64,000 bases of DNA from Natrinema sp. DC36. Its GTDB lineage: Archaea; Halobacteriota; Halobacteria; Halobacteriales; Natrialbaceae. The stretch's first letter is position 1, and every line of letters starts with the position of its first letter. Both the position numbers and the translations under genes were made by a program. This document shows, piece after piece, positions 26,664 to 48,220 of the stretch. Where the stretch lies: NCBI RefSeq assembly GCF_020405225.1, contig NZ_CP084472.1, positions 1,984,001 through 2,048,000 on the forward strand. Reading direction: 5' to 3'. The notes beneath the pieces are model-generated. The model saw only the letters and a program-made list of their open reading frames with translations. It searched no databases and was not told the DNA's origin.

Positions 26664-26672
26664 TTTTATATA
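26664..26672 (+). promoter_or_regulatory. TATA box of the nuclease cassette
   Basis: TTTTATATA lies 25-33 bases before the ATG at 26697, a strong haloarchaeal promoter position with a leaderless start. Confidence 0.55.
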
Positions 26673-26696: not shown

Positions 26697-27698
26697 ATGG
26701 GCGCCGGTGAGAGTAGCGAAAGCATACCAACGTCTCTGGAGACCGTACAGAAGCGAACACAGTGGATTCGAGACCGAGAAATAGCAAACACGGCGCTCAA
26801 AGATTTCCTCAGAAACCACGACAAAGACCTCCCCACAAGTGACATCGACTTAGAGGAACACGTCGCCAAAGTCCTTGACGAGGACGAATTCGATGACTTC
26901 CGGAAGCAATTCCGGTTTGGAGGAAAGCAAAGTCTGAACTTCTTCGTGTTGACAGGGATCTCGGATGAGTTCGACAACATACCCTCACAGGTTGTTAGCG
27001 AGTTCCCCCGAGCCGAAGAAGTCCAAGATCAGAAAGGTGAGCCGTTCCTCGTAGACACCGAAGAGTTCGATGACCGGCTGTACGTCATCCTTGGGCGGTA
27101 TGTGTCGATGAAGACAGTCGATCCGTCCACGGGCAAGCCACAGCGCGAACTGAAGCCGGACGAGTGTGTGGCCGTGATCAACAAGAACACCGACCTGGTT
27201 CACGTGCGAACTGCCGAGGTTCCGCTAGCACGGCGCATCTGCAAGAAAATCGCATCGTCCGTCGGCATGGATTACCAGAACGAGGACGTGTTCTACAAGC
27301 CGAGCTTCGACCAGGCGTTCGTTGACGAGTTCAGCGACCGAATCGAGAAGTACGTGAACCTGAACGTCGTCGTGAGCGAAGGCAACGGTCGGACGGCTAG
27401 TTCGGTCAGGTACACCTCGAAGAAAGACGAAACCGGGGAGTACATGAACTTGCTCGAGGACGACCAAGTACAGCAAGAGCTGAATGAGGAGGACGGCGAG
27501 ATCTCGAAAGGGTACGTCAAACTCAACGACGGCGACTTCGCGCTGTACCTGAATCGGCCCCAAAGTAAAATTTGGTTCAGAAGCTACGAACGGGAAGGAC
27601 GACTCAACGAAATCGAGGGACTCATCGACGATGTTCTCAGAAAAAGTGGAGGATATCCCCAGCAAAAACTTCAGGGATTTGAAAACGTCCCTGAGTGA
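26697..27698 (+). CDS. Unknown protein, first gene of an overlapping nuclease cassette
   Basis: A 333-residue protein with no recognised domain. The N-terminus is helical (SLETVQKRTQWIRDREIANT). The middle is beta-rich with RLYVILGRYVSMKTVDPSTG, then ECVAVINKNTDLVHVRTAEV. The end reads YLNRPQSKIWFRSYEREGRL. There are no metal, nucleotide or membrane motifs that I can see. Good promoter with leaderless ATG. The next gene starts inside its last 68 bases, so the three proteins are likely made together, suggesting a complex in which this is the large, perhaps sensing, subunit. Confidence 0.7.
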   Translation: MGAGESSESIPTSLETVQKRTQWIRDREIANTALKDFLRNHDKDLPTSDIDLEEHVAKVLDEDEFDDFRKQFRFGGKQSLNFFVLTGISDEFDNIPSQVVSEFPRAEEVQDQKGEPFLVDTEEFDDRLYVILGRYVSMKTVDPSTGKPQRELKPDECVAVINKNTDLVHVRTAEVPLARRICKKIASSVGMDYQNEDVFYKPSFDQAFVDEFSDRIEKYVNLNVVVSEGNGRTASSVRYTSKKDETGEYMNLLEDDQVQQELNEEDGEISKGYVKLNDGDFALYLNRPQSKIWFRSYEREGRLNEIEGLIDDVLRKSGGYPQQKLQGFENVPE

Positions 27699-28017
27699 GA
27701 TTCAAGCTGAACGAGGTCGGTTCACTCGTTCGGCGTTAGCGAAGCGTTCGGGGGTCGATGAGTCACAAGTACTGGTGTTCCTCAGTGAGCTGTGCGATGA
27801 GGGTGCAGTTGAGGCGAAGGTAAGGGTTCGATGCCCGTCTTGCCATCAAGAGCATGGGATGTACGCGTCTCGAAGTAGTGTTCCGAGCGAACCGAAGTAC
27901 TGCTTCTGCGGCAAGGAGTTCAATCCGGGTGAGAAGACGAACTGGTCGGTTGTGTATGAGTTCGTGGAGGACGTCGATTTTTTTCTGACCTCAAGGTGGA
28001 GTTCGAAACCTTCGTAG
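27631..28017 (+). CDS. Helix-turn-helix/zinc-ribbon protein, second gene of the cassette
   Basis: A 128-residue protein. Residues 15-62 look like a winged helix (DLKTSLSEIQAERGRFTRSA, then LAKRSGVDESQVLVFLSELC). Residues 67-97 hold a zinc ribbon (RVRCPSCHQEHGMYA, then PKYCFCGKEF: CxxC and CxC). Probably a DNA-binding or adaptor subunit. It overlaps the first gene by 68 bases and the third by 22, in different frames. Its start could be further inside, but ATG 27631 gives a sensible helix. Confidence 0.65.
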   Translation: MFSEKVEDIPSKNFRDLKTSLSEIQAERGRFTRSALAKRSGVDESQVLVFLSELCDEGAVEAKVRVRCPSCHQEHGMYASRSSVPSEPKYCFCGKEFNPGEKTNWSVVYEFVEDVDFFLTSRWSSKPS

Positions 28018-28517
28018 ACTCTGCAAGGGACTTGCGCCCGGATTACTTCCAGGAGAAGTTCTCCGAGCTGGAGTCAATAGATGACAGTGCGACTCGAGGA
28101 CGGTATTTCGATTACTTCGTTGGACTGCTGTTCAATCAGTTACCGGACGTAGACGTGGTGATTGGCCGGGAAGTCGCAACGGGCGAGATCGACGTCTTCG
28201 TTGCATGCTTAGATGCCCCTGACTGGGTTCATCGCCTGGTAGGCGAAGCGACGTTGCTTGAGAATAAGTGGCGAGAGAGTCCAACGGGGACTGACGATAT
28301 CAGCGTGTTCCACGATAAGGTGTCGATGGCGACGGCGTCGTGCAAGGTGTGTTACTTCGTTAGTATGGGCGGGTTCACGTCTGAACGGAATATGGGTGCG
28401 GAGCAGTTGATTCAGTCGAAGACTGACCCGAAGATGGTCGGGTGGGATCGTGAGGATGTGGAGGAGATGGTTCGTGAGGGGTCGCCGGAGGGGCTGTTGC
28501 GGTCGCATGTGATGTAG
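27996..28517 (+). CDS. PD-(D/E)XK nuclease-like protein, third gene of the cassette
   Basis: A 173-residue protein. A helix with TRGRYFDYFVGLLFNQLPDV is followed by VIGREVATGEIDVFVACLDA and EATLLENKWRESP: conserved Asp in GEIDVF and E-x-K in LLENKW, the order of a PD-(D/E)XK active site of Mrr/restriction type. The small size suggests a stand-alone catalytic subunit. Start is GTG at 27996, inside the preceding gene. The protein ends 149 bases before a tyrosine recombinase. DNA cleavage in defence or mobile-element competition is the likely role, but this is inference. Confidence 0.7.
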   Translation: MEFETFVDSARDLRPDYFQEKFSELESIDDSATRGRYFDYFVGLLFNQLPDVDVVIGREVATGEIDVFVACLDAPDWVHRLVGEATLLENKWRESPTGTDDISVFHDKVSMATASCKVCYFVSMGGFTSERNMGAEQLIQSKTDPKMVGWDREDVEEMVREGSPEGLLRSHVM

Positions 28518-28665: not shown

Positions 28666-29304
28666 ATGAGCAAGCAAGAAACAGTACACCGGTACATTGA
28701 CCTCACACAAGTAGACCCACTCCGCGACGCAGCACACGACCGCCCCCTCCGCTACGACAACCTCGGTCGCCGCCTGCGCGACGAACTACTCATCGTCCTC
28801 GGAATCGACCTCGGCGCGCGCGCCAACGAACTGCGTGGACTCAAGAAGTCAATGTTCCGACTCTCTGAAGGAGAGGTGACCATTCCCGGACACGTGCAGA
28901 AAGATTACCCCCACGAAGACCTCTCACCGGGGAGCGTCACGATGCGACTCGATCCGTTCGGCCACTTCGGAACCGTCCGTCTTCTCCGGTCGTACTTCAA
29001 CAGTGAATGGTACCAGGAGCGAGACAGCGACTACATCTTCCCATCACGGCAGTCAGACCAAATGACGACGGAGTCAATGCGCAACGTCGTCGAAGGTCTC
29101 GCAATTCACGCAGACATCACGGTTCACCGAAGCGACGGAGAGCCAGCTGACCCGTCAGAATTCCACCCACATGCACTCAGACACTCGCTGTCGAACTATA
29201 TGTTGGGTGACCCAGAAACTCGGCTTGTGGATGTGAGGAACAGACTCCGCCACCGCAGCGTATCGACGACAGAACGCGTTTACGACCACTTTCAGCGGCG
29301 CTGA
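28666..29304 (+). CDS. Tyrosine recombinase / integrase, catalytic domain
   Basis: A 212-residue protein with the full catalytic set: R52 in LGARANELRGL, H169 and R172 in HPHALRHSLSN, H196 in LRHRSVSTTERVY, and nucleophile Y206. The usual N-terminal SAM-like core-binding domain is absent, so it is about half the length of standard integrases; short haloarchaeal recombinases of this type exist. It could integrate or resolve the element. TAGTTAAG lies about 28 bases before the ATG. It sits between the nuclease cassette and a set of membrane protein genes, a likely module border. Confidence 0.88.
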   Translation: MSKQETVHRYIDLTQVDPLRDAAHDRPLRYDNLGRRLRDELLIVLGIDLGARANELRGLKKSMFRLSEGEVTIPGHVQKDYPHEDLSPGSVTMRLDPFGHFGTVRLLRSYFNSEWYQERDSDYIFPSRQSDQMTTESMRNVVEGLAIHADITVHRSDGEPADPSEFHPHALRHSLSNYMLGDPETRLVDVRNRLRHRSVSTTERVYDHFQRR

Positions 29305-33289: not shown

Positions 33290-33844
33290 ATGACAGATAC
33301 TGGGCCACGGGTTGAACTCGATCCCGAGGATCAGGAAGAACTCAAGGAGATTATTATCGAGTTCCTTTCCCAGTATGAGGCACTCTACAACTACCGCATC
33401 CAAAAGTTGATCTTTTATGGTGAGATCTACACTGCGCAGCATTTTGGAGAACGTCTGACTGATGCAAGTTTCATGCCTTATCATCATGGGCCTTATTCAT
33501 TCACTGTCGAGAAAGCGCTTGACCAGCTCTTGGAAGAAGGACGTATTTGCTTGAACACACATCGGGAGGGAGAGCAGTATATGACCTCAGAAGAACATGG
33601 AAGGTTGTCCTCCAAAAAACGAACGTGGATTAAAAACATTCACAAAGATACACGACATATGTCTACTCAAGATCTGGTGGACTTTGCGAAAAGCACATGG
33701 CTTTGGAGAAATTTTGAGCGAGAGGAGCGAATTGACTTTGCGAGTTACATTGATGAGGTTGTTCCGGCAAGAAATCTTCACTGGAGTCTTGCAAAAGAAG
33801 AGGAACCAGCATCAGAGGAAGACGTGGAACGTCTTCTGTTGTAA
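33290..33844 (+). CDS. Panacea-domain antitoxin (SocA/DUF4065-like)
   Basis: A 184-residue protein with the Panacea signature: YNYRIQKLIFYGEIYTAQHF (residues 34-53), then FMPYHHGPYSFTVEKALDQL (62-81). Panacea domains neutralise many unrelated toxins in two-gene modules. A C-terminal extension (TRHMSTQDLVDFAKSTWLWR onward) may hold the toxin. TCTTTATCC lies about 27 bases before the ATG. Strongly AT-rich compared with all flanking genes, a sign of transfer from a lower-GC host. The partner follows 78 bases downstream. Confidence 0.78.
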   Translation: MTDTGPRVELDPEDQEELKEIIIEFLSQYEALYNYRIQKLIFYGEIYTAQHFGERLTDASFMPYHHGPYSFTVEKALDQLLEEGRICLNTHREGEQYMTSEEHGRLSSKKRTWIKNIHKDTRHMSTQDLVDFAKSTWLWRNFEREERIDFASYIDEVVPARNLHWSLAKEEEPASEEDVERLLL

Positions 33845-33922
33845 CTACTTGTTTTTCGTTTGTTAGTGGTGTGAGAAGGAACGTTTTATTACCCCATAGG
33901 ATAACGATTTCTCTAGCTCTAT

Positions 33923-34465
33923 ATGACTGACAGGCATTGGACAATTAATGCCGATAAGAAGTTTCTCGACAAATATGAGAGTTTGAAACAATCGAGTGGT
34001 GGTCTATTCGATAATTTGAAGAAGACTGTCGAACGAATTAAGGATAATCCTCTTATTGGTGATCCAAAAACAGGGCAGATGAAGGGAACCCGTACGACTC
34101 ATGTTGAGCATCTTATTGTTCAGTGGAAACTTGATCCAGAAATTTTACGGAAAAAGCATAAGAGTGATCTTGAAGAAGTGTACTTTCTGTCAATTACCCA
34201 CCACGATAAAATGAGAAAGGGGGTAAGACAAAGCCAAAGCGTTGAAATCGAACTTCAGTGCGTTATCACTTTCTTTGAATATGATATCGGGGAGGAACTT
34301 AATTTGCTCTATAATATCGATTGTGTAGCCCTTAATGAACCACATTGGAAAAACGATGGGAAAGTTACTATCAAAGGGAAAGTCACACCAATGGATCGTG
34401 ACATTCTAATGAGTCAGTTACCGGACAAAGCAGAGATTGAGTTCAGCGATTCAGGATTGATTTAG
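33923..34465 (+). CDS. RelE/ParE-like toxin
   Basis: A 180-residue protein. Residues 8-95 show the RelE/YafQ layout: two helices (NADKKFLDKYESLKQSSGGL, then LFDNLKKTVERIKDNPLIGD), the linker PKTGQMKGTRTTHVEHLIVQ, then strands ending EEVYFLSITHHDKM. Such toxins cleave mRNA on ribosomes or hit gyrase. About 80 extra residues follow, beyond the usual 90-100, with further strands. It has its own TTTTATTAC box but probably pairs with the Panacea antitoxin upstream. AT-rich like its partner. Confidence 0.68.
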   Translation: MTDRHWTINADKKFLDKYESLKQSSGGLFDNLKKTVERIKDNPLIGDPKTGQMKGTRTTHVEHLIVQWKLDPEILRKKHKSDLEEVYFLSITHHDKMRKGVRQSQSVEIELQCVITFFEYDIGEELNLLYNIDCVALNEPHWKNDGKVTIKGKVTPMDRDILMSQLPDKAEIEFSDSGLI

Positions 34466-45532: not shown

Positions 45533-46102
45533 ATGGGGCGCATTCCGAGTTGGGCCAAGGTAGTCCTCTTCTTGAGCTCCTATAGCCCGCTCTACATCAT
45601 CATCGCACTTCGCGCCCACAACGCCGAGCTTTCTATTCTGGGACTCCAATTGGAACCAGTTGGTTTCGGGCCGGTCGAATTGTCCTACCTCTCCCTTGGC
45701 TCGCTACTCGTCACAGTCGTTAGCGTGGCGTTCTTGGCCGTAATGATCCGGATGAACCGGACACGACAGGGTCAGATGAGCGAAATCGAACACTATCGGA
45801 ATCGATCGGATATGTTCACGGAGTACCTGCTGGTCTACATCTTTCCCTTCATCGTGTTCGAGTTCTCGAATATGTTCGACGTGGCGGCGTTTCTAGTCCT
45901 ATTCATAACCGTCGCAGCAATCGTAATCCGTTCTAATCGTCTCTTCGTCAATCCCGTACTGATCGCCTTTCGGTATCGGGTGTATGAGGTCGAAACAGAG
46001 CACGATAGACGAATTCTCCTCACCAAAGAGCGGCTTGATGGTAATGACATAACAATCAACACCGCAAGAATAAGTAGCGATGTCTATATTACTACAAGAT
46101 AA
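45533..46102 (+). CDS. KwaA-like membrane protein (Kiwa system)
   Basis: A 189-residue protein with four hydrophobic segments (AKVVLFLSSYSPLYIIIALR; LSLGSLLVTVVSVAFLAVMI; YLLVYIFPFIVFEFSN; AAFLVLFITVAAIVI) and a soluble C-terminus (RVYEVETEHDRRILLTKERL). KwaA in Kiwa is a membrane protein of this size and topology, encoded directly before kwaB. The assignment rests on topology plus the DUF4868-like partner, not on strong motif identity. Its TAA overlaps the partner's ATG (TAATG). It is transcribed against the surrounding BREX genes. Confidence 0.65.
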   Translation: MGRIPSWAKVVLFLSSYSPLYIIIALRAHNAELSILGLQLEPVGFGPVELSYLSLGSLLVTVVSVAFLAVMIRMNRTRQGQMSEIEHYRNRSDMFTEYLLVYIFPFIVFEFSNMFDVAAFLVLFITVAAIVIRSNRLFVNPVLIAFRYRVYEVETEHDRRILLTKERLDGNDITINTARISSDVYITTR

Positions 46103-47112
46103 TGAGTACAGCGAGCGAAGACGAAGCTCGAGACCAGTTTGACGACCTGGTCGATTTTCTCCAACGGATCGAAGCGGTCGACACGAGCGAACTCGGGATC
46201 GATCTGCTGTTGGCTCGGCTTGACAAAGGAAGTGATGAGGAGTACGCCTACAACTTCGAGCGCATCTCGTTAGATCAAGAGATTCCCGAGGAACTGGAAG
46301 GGCTGGTACGCGAGAAGGTCGAGAACAAGCAGTCCGCCCTCGAAAGCGATAAGATCCGCTTTTCTGACTACAGCATAGAAAACCGCGATCGCGATCAGAC
46401 GTTCGTCCAGTACGAACCCGCCGAAAACATCCCGCAGTTCGATAATTTTGAGCGCCTCCTCGAAGGGCAACGATTCAGCCACACCACATATACTGAGCCA
46501 CCGAAGCCGGAGTTTCAAGCGATCCGTATTCAAGACGGCGAGACGGGGGAGATGGCGATCGCCTTCTTGAATTATTCGCGAAGTCAAATCATGGGGCGGA
46601 CGTCGTGGGCTCGGATGAAGGTAGGGAGTGAAAAACATCGGAAGGTGGATGATTCTCTGATCTCCATCCCCGACCGCGTCGACGCCGTGTATTACGACGA
46701 GATGATGTACATCTTCGTCCAATCGAAGTTCGAAAAGGTGTTTGATTATCTAGCCGAGTACGAACGATGCGCTGACAACGTCATCGAGACTATCGAAGAG
46801 ACGGATATTCCGTTCCATGACTTCGAGATGTTTAGCGAGGCCGTCTACGGCAACAACCGCGTCCTGCGGCTGATGTACAAAGTCCACGAGCGCGGAGTGT
46901 ACGAGGACATGGATTCGGCAGATGCGGCGTATATTCGTGAGAACTTCGATAGCGACGTGAAGTTCGAGGAGAACGGGGACGGAGAGATGGCTATCAAGAT
47001 GGACGACAAACGAGACGTCTGGGCAGTCCTTCGGTTCTTCAATGATGACCACCTCGACTCGCCTCTCACAGATGAACAGTACATTTCGCTATCCAAGCAG
47101 GATGCCGGGTGA
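46102..47112 (+). CDS. KwaB-like DUF4868 protein (Kiwa system)
   Basis: A 336-residue protein matching DUF4868 in layout. It has a beta-rich first half (EPPKPEFQAIRIQDGETGEM), then VDAVYYDEMMYIFVQSKFEK at about 192-211, the marked DUF4868 stretch. Next comes the helix VFDYLAEYERCADNVIETIE and an end with DKRDVWAVLRFFNDDHLDSP, then LTDEQYISLSKQ. KwaB is the cytoplasmic DNA-binding effector of Kiwa and works with membrane KwaA. Start overlaps kwaA by one base, so translation is coupled. It is convergent with the nuclease gene at 47177. Family likely, activity inferred. Confidence 0.75.
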   Translation: MSTASEDEARDQFDDLVDFLQRIEAVDTSELGIDLLLARLDKGSDEEYAYNFERISLDQEIPEELEGLVREKVENKQSALESDKIRFSDYSIENRDRDQTFVQYEPAENIPQFDNFERLLEGQRFSHTTYTEPPKPEFQAIRIQDGETGEMAIAFLNYSRSQIMGRTSWARMKVGSEKHRKVDDSLISIPDRVDAVYYDEMMYIFVQSKFEKVFDYLAEYERCADNVIETIEETDIPFHDFEMFSEAVYGNNRVLRLMYKVHERGVYEDMDSADAAYIRENFDSDVKFEENGDGEMAIKMDDKRDVWAVLRFFNDDHLDSPLTDEQYISLSKQDAG

Positions 47113-47176: not shown

Positions 47177-48220
47177 CTACGCAGTTTCCTTCTGAAGTAT
47201 TCTCCGGGCTTCTGACTCCAGCGCACCGAAATTCAGATCTTGATCTGATCGACAGGTAATTCGCACGCCGCTTCGACCACTACTCCGCATATCATCTTTA
47301 ACTGCGACTGAATCGACATCAATTCCGAGAGCTTCGGCGATCTCTCCAGCGTTCAGTGCCTCGGTATCGACATCGTACAGGTCGATATGGAACAAGGTGC
47401 GTTTTGTTCGAATTGCGATACGGCGCTTTCGGCCCTTATTGAAGGCGACGTAGTGTTTCTGACCCCATTCTGGCCCGTTGAGGAATTCGAGTTCCTGTAG
47501 TGCAGTCGTGACGTCTTCCAACAGGTCGGCAGTTTGCTCGTTCGAACGCTCGTTGAGGTGCCAACTCTGTCCGTCCTCCTTCCACGGCTCGTCGGAGGTG
47601 TCGGGACTCACATCGGTCACGGTGTGTTCTGGCGTCGGAATTGTCTGTTCTGCATCGAGATACAACCGGTCGTCGTCCTTGAGGAGTTGGAACTCGATAA
47701 CGGAGATGTCGATCGACCTGTCGCTGAGCCACCGAAGCACGATATCCAGCCGCTCGCGGACGGACTCACCGACGAAGACGATCCGCTGATCCTGGTTGAG
47801 CGTGTAGTCCTCGTTGCAGAACTCGTCAAGTACCTCGGTAAACGTGGTTTCTTCCTCGTAGAGCGTCTGCCCCCACGTTGTAGATTTGAACTTTTTAAAT
47901 TGGTCGCGAAGTTTGGAGTAATCCCAGTGTGAGGTGTACGCGGCATACTTGAGGCCCTGAAAATCGACTTTCGGTTTCAACGCGCCTCGTTTGAGTTCGA
48001 TAGCAACCACATTGGCATCTCGGTCGATAGCGAGGAGATCGATCCCATCGCGGATCTGCTTCACGGAGACTTCTCGACCGATGAGCCGAAAGTCCTCGCC
48101 GAGAATACTTTCAGGACTATTTATAATCCACTCCCGGAGATCATCCTCACGAAATCCCTCATCTTTCAGGGAAACTGTTTCTAATGTGGAAACGTCTTCC
48201 TCATCCCCGACTCTGAGCAT
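47177..48220 (-). CDS. NucS-like PD-(D/E)XK nuclease in the BREX locus
   Basis: A 347-residue protein. Helix DLREWIINSPESILGEDFRL (residues 27-46), then RDGIDLLAIDRDANVVAIEL followed by KRG. Asp61 and E75-L-K77 form the PD-(D/E)XK site in the NucS/EndoMS-like arrangement. The rest has strands and a C-terminal domain (HYVAFNKGRKRRIAIRTKRT) like those behind stand-alone NucS-type nucleases in phage-defence islands. It starts 44 bases after the second brxC gene stops on the same strand, so it may be cotranscribed with the BREX operon. Substrate unknown. Confidence 0.75.
   Translation of the reverse strand: MLRVGDEEDVSTLETVSLKDEGFREDDLREWIINSPESILGEDFRLIGREVSVKQIRDGIDLLAIDRDANVVAIELKRGALKPKVDFQGLKYAAYTSHWDYSKLRDQFKKFKSTTWGQTLYEEETTFTEVLDEFCNEDYTLNQDQRIVFVGESVRERLDIVLRWLSDRSIDISVIEFQLLKDDDRLYLDAEQTIPTPEHTVTDVSPDTSDEPWKEDGQSWHLNERSNEQTADLLEDVTTALQELEFLNGPEWGQKHYVAFNKGRKRRIAIRTKRTLFHIDLYDVDTEALNAGEIAEALGIDVDSVAVKDDMRSSGRSGVRITCRSDQDLNFGALESEARRILQKETA

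Follow-up and report, generated by a model that had tools for sequence, protein, structure and literature searches.

A rare, mobile haloarchaeal gene module, probably for defence, whose adaptor and nuclease are probably joined by a slip at a conserved T7 run

The DNA analysed here, referred to as the window, is a stretch of 64,000 nucleotides from Natrinema sp. DC36 (contig NZ_CP084472.1, positions 1,984,001 to 2,048,000), and coordinates are counted from its first letter. Three overlapping open reading frames lie on its plus strand, coding for proteins of 333 amino acids (P1, 26697-27698), 128 amino acids (P2, 27631-28017) and 173 amino acids (P3, 27996-28517). P1 and P2 share 68 nt of dual-coding sequence (27631-27698, +) and P2 and P3 share 22 nt (27996-28017, +), each time in different frames, with P3 in the -1 frame relative to P2. 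A TATA box, TTTTATATA, is located on the same strand at 26664-26672, about 29 nt upstream of the P1 start codon (ATG at 26697), and this spacing is compatible with a leaderless transcript of the haloarchaeal kind. Directly after the module follows a gene for a tyrosine recombinase of the Phage_integrase family (28666-29304); its product of 212 amino acids contains little beyond the catalytic domain and may be truncated or an invertase-like remnant. The first-pass annotation had described the three frames, their coordinates and both overlaps exactly as we found them, and it had also correctly named the TATA box, the recombinase and a BREX cluster, which begins at 34.7 kb.

Alignment with related copies defined a conserved unit that extends from the promoter to the stop codon of P3 and contains P1, P2 and P3 only. 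The flank of the TATA box is kept as GTGTCACCCAA among close relatives, with GTATGTCACCCAA in one copy. The P1/P2 overlap measures 68 nt in the window, in five of the six loci with fused P2 and P3 genes (see below) and in locus L053, and 71 nt in L022; the 68-nt overlap thus persists in nearly all relatives, including L053 from another archaeal class. The sequences flanking three aligned copies were unrelated to each other, as expected for a mobile cassette, which they suggest the module to be.

The genes also travel together, as the first-pass annotation had required for its reading as a defence system. P1 was present in 8 of 391 genomes of the class, and P3 was adjacent to it in all of these (8/8), one further genome among the 391 yielding a weak match to P3 only. 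A family search added a ninth haloarchaeal carrier (G400), and the module was also found on a plasmid of Natrinema thermotolerans A29, for which two assembly records exist. Searching genome contigs identified three named carriers, Natrinema limicola, Haloarchaeobius iranensis and Natrialba hulunbeirensis, and a distant but full P1-P2-P3 module (L053) was detected in an AT-rich archaeon of another class. Altogether, the full module occurs in about ten genomes or plasmids, whereas viral contigs contained no relatives of it and no phage record matched P1. The module is real, rare and mobile.

P1 had initially been described as matching nothing recognisable, which held true at the level of families, as we obtained no match in Pfam or PADLOC, and none of 11 members matched the RdgC family of Pfam at E 0.1. 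It did not hold true at the level of structure. An AlphaFold (AF2) model of P1 (pLDDT 82.8, pTM 0.78) matched E. coli RdgC best (Foldseek E 1.8e-7; VIA Z 13.5 over 222-224 residues, rmsd 4.5-4.9), followed by CENP-N (Z 9.9) and CENP-L/Iml3 (Z 9-9.6), with the next group at about 7; RexA was absent among the best 50 structural matches listed. P1 is accordingly modelled as a set of N-terminal helices attached to an RdgC/CENP-N-L-like fold. The N-terminal helical region (residues 11-73) was aligned by CENP-N and not by RdgC, an observation with a possible bearing on the origin of CENP-N/L. Despite the acidic background of halophile proteins, nine positions carry a basic residue in at least 80% of the P1 members. 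The RdgC dimer encircles DNA and inhibits RecA, and P1 is a candidate for a DNA-binding clamp subunit, as predicted from its model. RdgC has been described as a ring-shaped, non-specific DNA-binding dimer, and the phage-exclusion protein RexA of lambda has the same fold (PMC11077077). By its model, P1 shares this fold with RdgC and CENP-N-CENP-L (Iml3-Chl4), but it is set apart by the missing Pfam sequence similarity, by extra N-terminal helices with a counterpart in the alignment to CENP-N only and by being encoded in an operon with a nuclease.

Two other candidate relationships of P1 were discarded. A relationship to KwaB (DUF4868) found no support in PADLOC (no match at E<=1) or in a direct comparison with the KwaB of the window (hhalign probability 0.1), and a weak match within the same genome (C1:207469, E 0.007) is by its sequence an unrelated protein of the FAD/NAD-binding type. 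The Kiwa system (KwaA/KwaB), which is encoded 18 kb away in the window, is a defence system with a DNA-binding partner similar in size to P1, but apart from the missing P1-KwaB match, the module contains no ORF for a membrane protein like KwaA. It also codes for a nuclease, while KwaB leaves DNA uncut (PMC12904381).

Distant relatives of P1 of about 300 amino acids were observed without P2 or P3 in about twelve haloarchaeal genomes (L081-L092, L096). Several of them are located in cassettes together with a DUF1156 methyltransferase, DUF499, a McrC family protein, an AAA ATPase and a TATA-binding protein paralogue. On a plasmid of Halorussus pelagicus (L095, 5890-6744), a P1-like protein adjoins an N-6 DNA methylase and a restriction endonuclease of the XamI family. 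A decayed P1 relative in G506 (L065, contig C53, 170-1150), which is ended early by a stop codon and lacks P2 and P3, adjoins a gene similar to B-family DNA polymerases.

For P2 and P3, the domains proposed by the first-pass annotation were recovered. P2 yielded weak winged-helix matches and contains a CxxC..CxC zinc ribbon, and P3 carries the motif GE(I/V)DV...ENKW, of which GE(x)D and ENKW are invariant across the alignment of fused relatives and represent the catalytic D...E-x-K. The Mrr_cat family (PF04471) was matched by five of the six fused relatives with a best E value of 4.8e-5, the match of the first member reaching 17.6 bits, which is below the curated cut-off of 21 bits. L023, one of the fused relatives, was modelled (pLDDT 85.7) with a PD-(D/E)XK domain in addition to a winged helix and zinc ribbon, and the structures closest to its nuclease domain were the small subunit of R.BspD6I (VIA Z 12.9) and AF1548 (Z 11.1), with PD-(D/E)XK folds leading the listing. 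P3 is thus predicted from motif and model to be an Mrr-like PD-(D/E)XK nuclease. It resembles the Mrr-type restriction endonucleases (PF04471) of type IV restriction in its Mrr_cat domain and D...E-x-K site, but the module differs from these in its adaptor of winged helix and zinc ribbon, its constant partner of the RdgC fold and its Mrr_cat scores near or below the cut-off. Some further matches were set aside: those of the fused model to RPB5 and EndoMS in Foldseek reflect a common nuclease-like fold only, a Sinorhizobium plasmid protein annotated as restriction endonuclease matched P3 over 51 residues only and occurs without P1, and weak nuclease matches in other archaea (G476, G570, G637, G701, G500, G404 and G392) belong to other architectures without P1.

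The first-pass annotation had treated P1, P2 and P3 as three independent genes, and here its description had to be revised. All six more distant haloarchaeal relatives (L022-L027) contain P2 and P3 as one ORF of 292-302 amino acids, whereas split genes occur among the haloarchaeal copies only in the window, G211 (L021), N. thermotolerans (L030/L031) and G400 (L062). The split point is located after an invariant Asp-Phe-Phe within an otherwise variable linker, which in all four split copies is encoded by GAT TTT TTT and followed by CTGA(C/T)CTC. The resulting T7 heptamer (27978-27984, +) reads T-TTT-TTT and fits the X-XXY-YYZ pattern of slippery sites. A slip by -1 at this run leads into the frame of P3 and yields, by in-silico translation, a protein of 295 amino acids (27631-28517, +), which aligns colinearly with the fused relatives; the zero-frame product is the short isoform, P2. 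Of the six fused genes, all but L022 (GATTTCTTT) also have GAT TTT TTT at exactly this place (nt 356 from the start of gene 2). Because the fused relatives keep the run, it must predate the split. Going by these alignments, a frameshift at T7 probably links P2 and P3 in the window.

As the split might also be an artefact or a defect, we considered whether the window copy is decaying and its frameshift a disabling mutation or a sequencing error. Decay does occur in this family, as illustrated by the P1 remnant without P2 and P3 in G506, but frame arrangement and T7 agree in four copies, one of them, from N. thermotolerans A29, carrying this T7 in both assembly records, which led us to reject a sequencing error. 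Moreover, pN/pS among the four split copies was 0.094 for P3 and 0.149 for P2, with the limitation that these copies are related and the pairwise sums are not independent. Decay is therefore very improbable. Phase variation by changes of the T run was rejected as well, its length being 7 in both the split and the fused arrangement.

The conservation of T7 exceeds what codon usage predicts. Calculated from the Asp and Phe codon usage of each gene pair, 0.96 sites were expected in the fused set and five were seen (P(>=5/6)=4.5e-4), a value to be read with the fact that the T7 hypothesis was formed on the same sequences; further genome searches found no unseen family members for checking it. TTT is a rare codon in the lineage of the window (2 of 36 other Phe codons), giving a chance of about 1e-3 for the run, and across all 64 kb of the window there is no T7 or A7 besides the one at 27978-27984, compared to an average of 3.8 in shuffled sequences. 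Because T7 is kept beyond codon expectation in the fused genes, a short product is a plausible second isoform there, too. We also looked for selection for such a short form in an early stop codon in the -1 or +1 frame after T7 of the fused genes, but the next out-of-frame stop was not nearer than by chance (P about 0.2) and this idea was dropped. The fused genes are therefore evidence that the site is conserved, but not for any particular product. In the fused gene of L024 (8780-9676), a second 7-base run (A7, position 430) was noticed in the nuclease part.

The run might instead work inside the gene as a pause site or as a weak intrinsic terminator of transcription, setting the ratio of P2-only to full transcripts without any shift of frame. 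Archaeal RNA polymerase terminates at oligo-T sequences, and oligo-T terminators are established for archaea. Such a role would also fit the T7 runs of fused genes, which need no shift for their long form, but termination offers no way of bringing the four split copies back into frame, and the fused genes have T7 at an exact codon pair. We regard this explanation as quite improbable.

Another alternative concerns the start of P3, which could be a separate subunit initiated at its own codon, either the one at 27996, which is GTG in the window but CTG in its three closest relatives, or a TTG further on, leaving no fusion and an incidental T7. The split copies agree in the position of this GTG or CTG, and the public annotation lets P3 of N. 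thermotolerans begin at a later TTG. However, there is no Shine-Dalgarno sequence 5-9 nt upstream of codon 27996, P2 and P3 form a single ORF in six relatives, the frame of P3 is conserved right up to T7, and an independent start would leave the conservation of T7 in the fused genes unexplained. Codons 3-17 after T7 showed 21 synonymous versus 8 nonsynonymous differences in the P3 frame among the four split copies (pN/pS 0.112), subject to the same relatedness of the copies, and within this stretch no ATG, GTG or TTG is present in G211, G400 and N. thermotolerans, where the first one appears at codons 18, 18 and 30, respectively; G400 alone contains a TTG further upstream in the P3 frame. In the 12 nt before the codon-6 GTG/CTG, all differences in the P3 frame are synonymous, but they are few. 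The simplest account of these patterns is that the stretch after T7 is translated within a P2-P3 fusion, although the codon-6 GTG/CTG might be a non-standard start. A separate P3 subunit thus appears unlikely.

With regard to the probable slip at T7, the surrounding sequence contains one candidate stimulator. A GGAGG element resembling a Shine-Dalgarno sequence (27966-27970, +) lies 7 nt upstream of the run and is kept in the split copies, whereas of the fused genes only L023 and L026 have a GAGG at this distance; downstream, we found no consistent or common RNA fold that could serve as stimulatory structure (z-scores from +0.8 to -2.5). Ribosomal -1 frameshifting and slippage of RNA polymerase are not separable from the sequence. 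In the distant locus L053 (G651:C234, 1072-2924), P2 and P3 are split at a Phe-Phe T6 run with the partner in the +1/-2 frame instead of -1. We do not build on this case, which could stem from an assembly artefact, from decay or from transcriptional slippage in both directions. The closest known archaeal example is the -1 frameshift of fucA1 of Saccharolobus solfataricus, which likewise involves two ORFs overlapping by tens of nt and a heptamer of the homopolymer type (PMC8211752); the module differs by its U7 instead of A-AAA-AAT, the lack of an evident hairpin, the conservation across fused and split homologues and the location in a defence-type operon. Recoding of the dnaX type in bacteria similarly yields a short and a long product from one gene at a slippery run, whereas in the module the isoform that serves as the default can differ between lineages.

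The proposal of an undescribed defence system was further assessed by the genomic context. Between 34.7 and 57.3 kb, the window contains a BREX cluster (BrxHII, PglZ, PglX, two BrxC, BrxB and BrxA) with an embedded Kiwa system (KwaA, KwaB). GmrSD and Mrr are neighbours of L021, a type IIG restriction-modification enzyme and a PLD-SNF2 helicase follow directly downstream in L023, an HSDR_N protein adjoins L024, LmuA-like (Lamassu-like) and RT-PDDEXK-like proteins adjoin L025, and a McrBC component adjoins L062. Of the six fused loci, the scan of neighbours for defence families covered L023, L024 and L025, and inspection of L027 showed no recognisable defence gene nearby. Going by their neighbours, most copies of the module adjoin restriction or other defence genes and not mainly housekeeping genes, in line with the expectation of the first-pass annotation and with L027 as the exception. 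The module itself lacks a methyltransferase as would belong to a restriction-modification system, and the one beside L023 is not common to the other loci. Within the BREX cluster of the window, the KwaA/KwaB genes (45533-47112) are located on the opposite strand beside a gene for a PDC-S11 candidate defence protein (47177-48220), and at the edge of the cluster (33290-34465) a SocA/Panacea-domain antitoxin-like gene is followed by a ParE/RelE-like toxin gene.

A real module could still serve a purpose other than defence, namely recombination and repair or the maintenance of mobile replicons, in analogy to the role of RdgC in recombination. RdgC acts in recombination as a housekeeping protein (PMC11077077), the copy of N. 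thermotolerans resides on a plasmid and that of the window beside an integrase, and L027 lacks a recognisable defence neighbour. Against this stand the patchy distribution (8/391), the nuclease partner, the defence genes beside most copies and the presence of distant P1 relatives in DUF1156/DUF499/McrC or restriction-modification cassettes, and we consider a non-defence role rather unlikely. The module is probably one for defence with a programmed slip, as far as its sequence allows this conclusion. The earlier proposal of an undescribed defence system thus stands insofar as the genes travel together and are absent as a system from Pfam and PADLOC, but not in its three-gene composition.

Our proposed model is a mobile DNA-targeting module of two proteins, with P2 and P3 joined by a slip at T7 and made in two isoforms, most likely acting against viruses or plasmids, and we consider this model likely. 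Dimers of P1 would bind or encircle DNA, and the P2 part would either link P1 to the nuclease or act alone as a non-cutting subunit. In the window, standard decoding would end after the adaptor (P2, 128 amino acids), whereas a -1 slip at T-TTT-TTT, either by the ribosome or by an insertion by RNA polymerase at T7, would give the adaptor-nuclease of 295 amino acids; in the fused relatives, a slip at T7 would give the short form instead. The resulting complex of P1 and adaptor would contain a set minority of nuclease-bearing subunits and might cut DNA where P1 has assembled. A more far-reaching version sees in the module an undescribed archaeal immune operon, consisting of an RdgC-fold clamp and an adaptor-nuclease, in which a T7 slip older than the divergence of split and fused genes programmes two isoforms of the nuclease subunit; T7 would then be the first recoding element to be conserved phylogenetically within a defence gene of archaea. 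We judge the chances of this version to be slightly better than even.

As the combination of an RdgC/RexA/CENP-N fold with a nuclease, the module is a candidate defence system that PADLOC does not contain. It also widens the range of a DNA-clamp fold whose known settings are phage exclusion, recombination and kinetochores. If the model is true, the stoichiometry of an immune subunit would be set by recoding. According to a review from 2021, only one case of programmed -1 frameshifting had been reported in archaea, with further cases only suggested, e.g., in haloviruses (PMC8211752). Because archaeal -1 frameshifting was based on a single reported case in that review, T7 deserves experimental study more than any other feature of the module. 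Carried by a gene that occurs on chromosomes as well as on a plasmid of haloarchaea that can be cultured (Natrinema, Haloarchaeobius and Natrialba), a conserved slip site would make archaeal recoding or RNA polymerase slippage directly testable.
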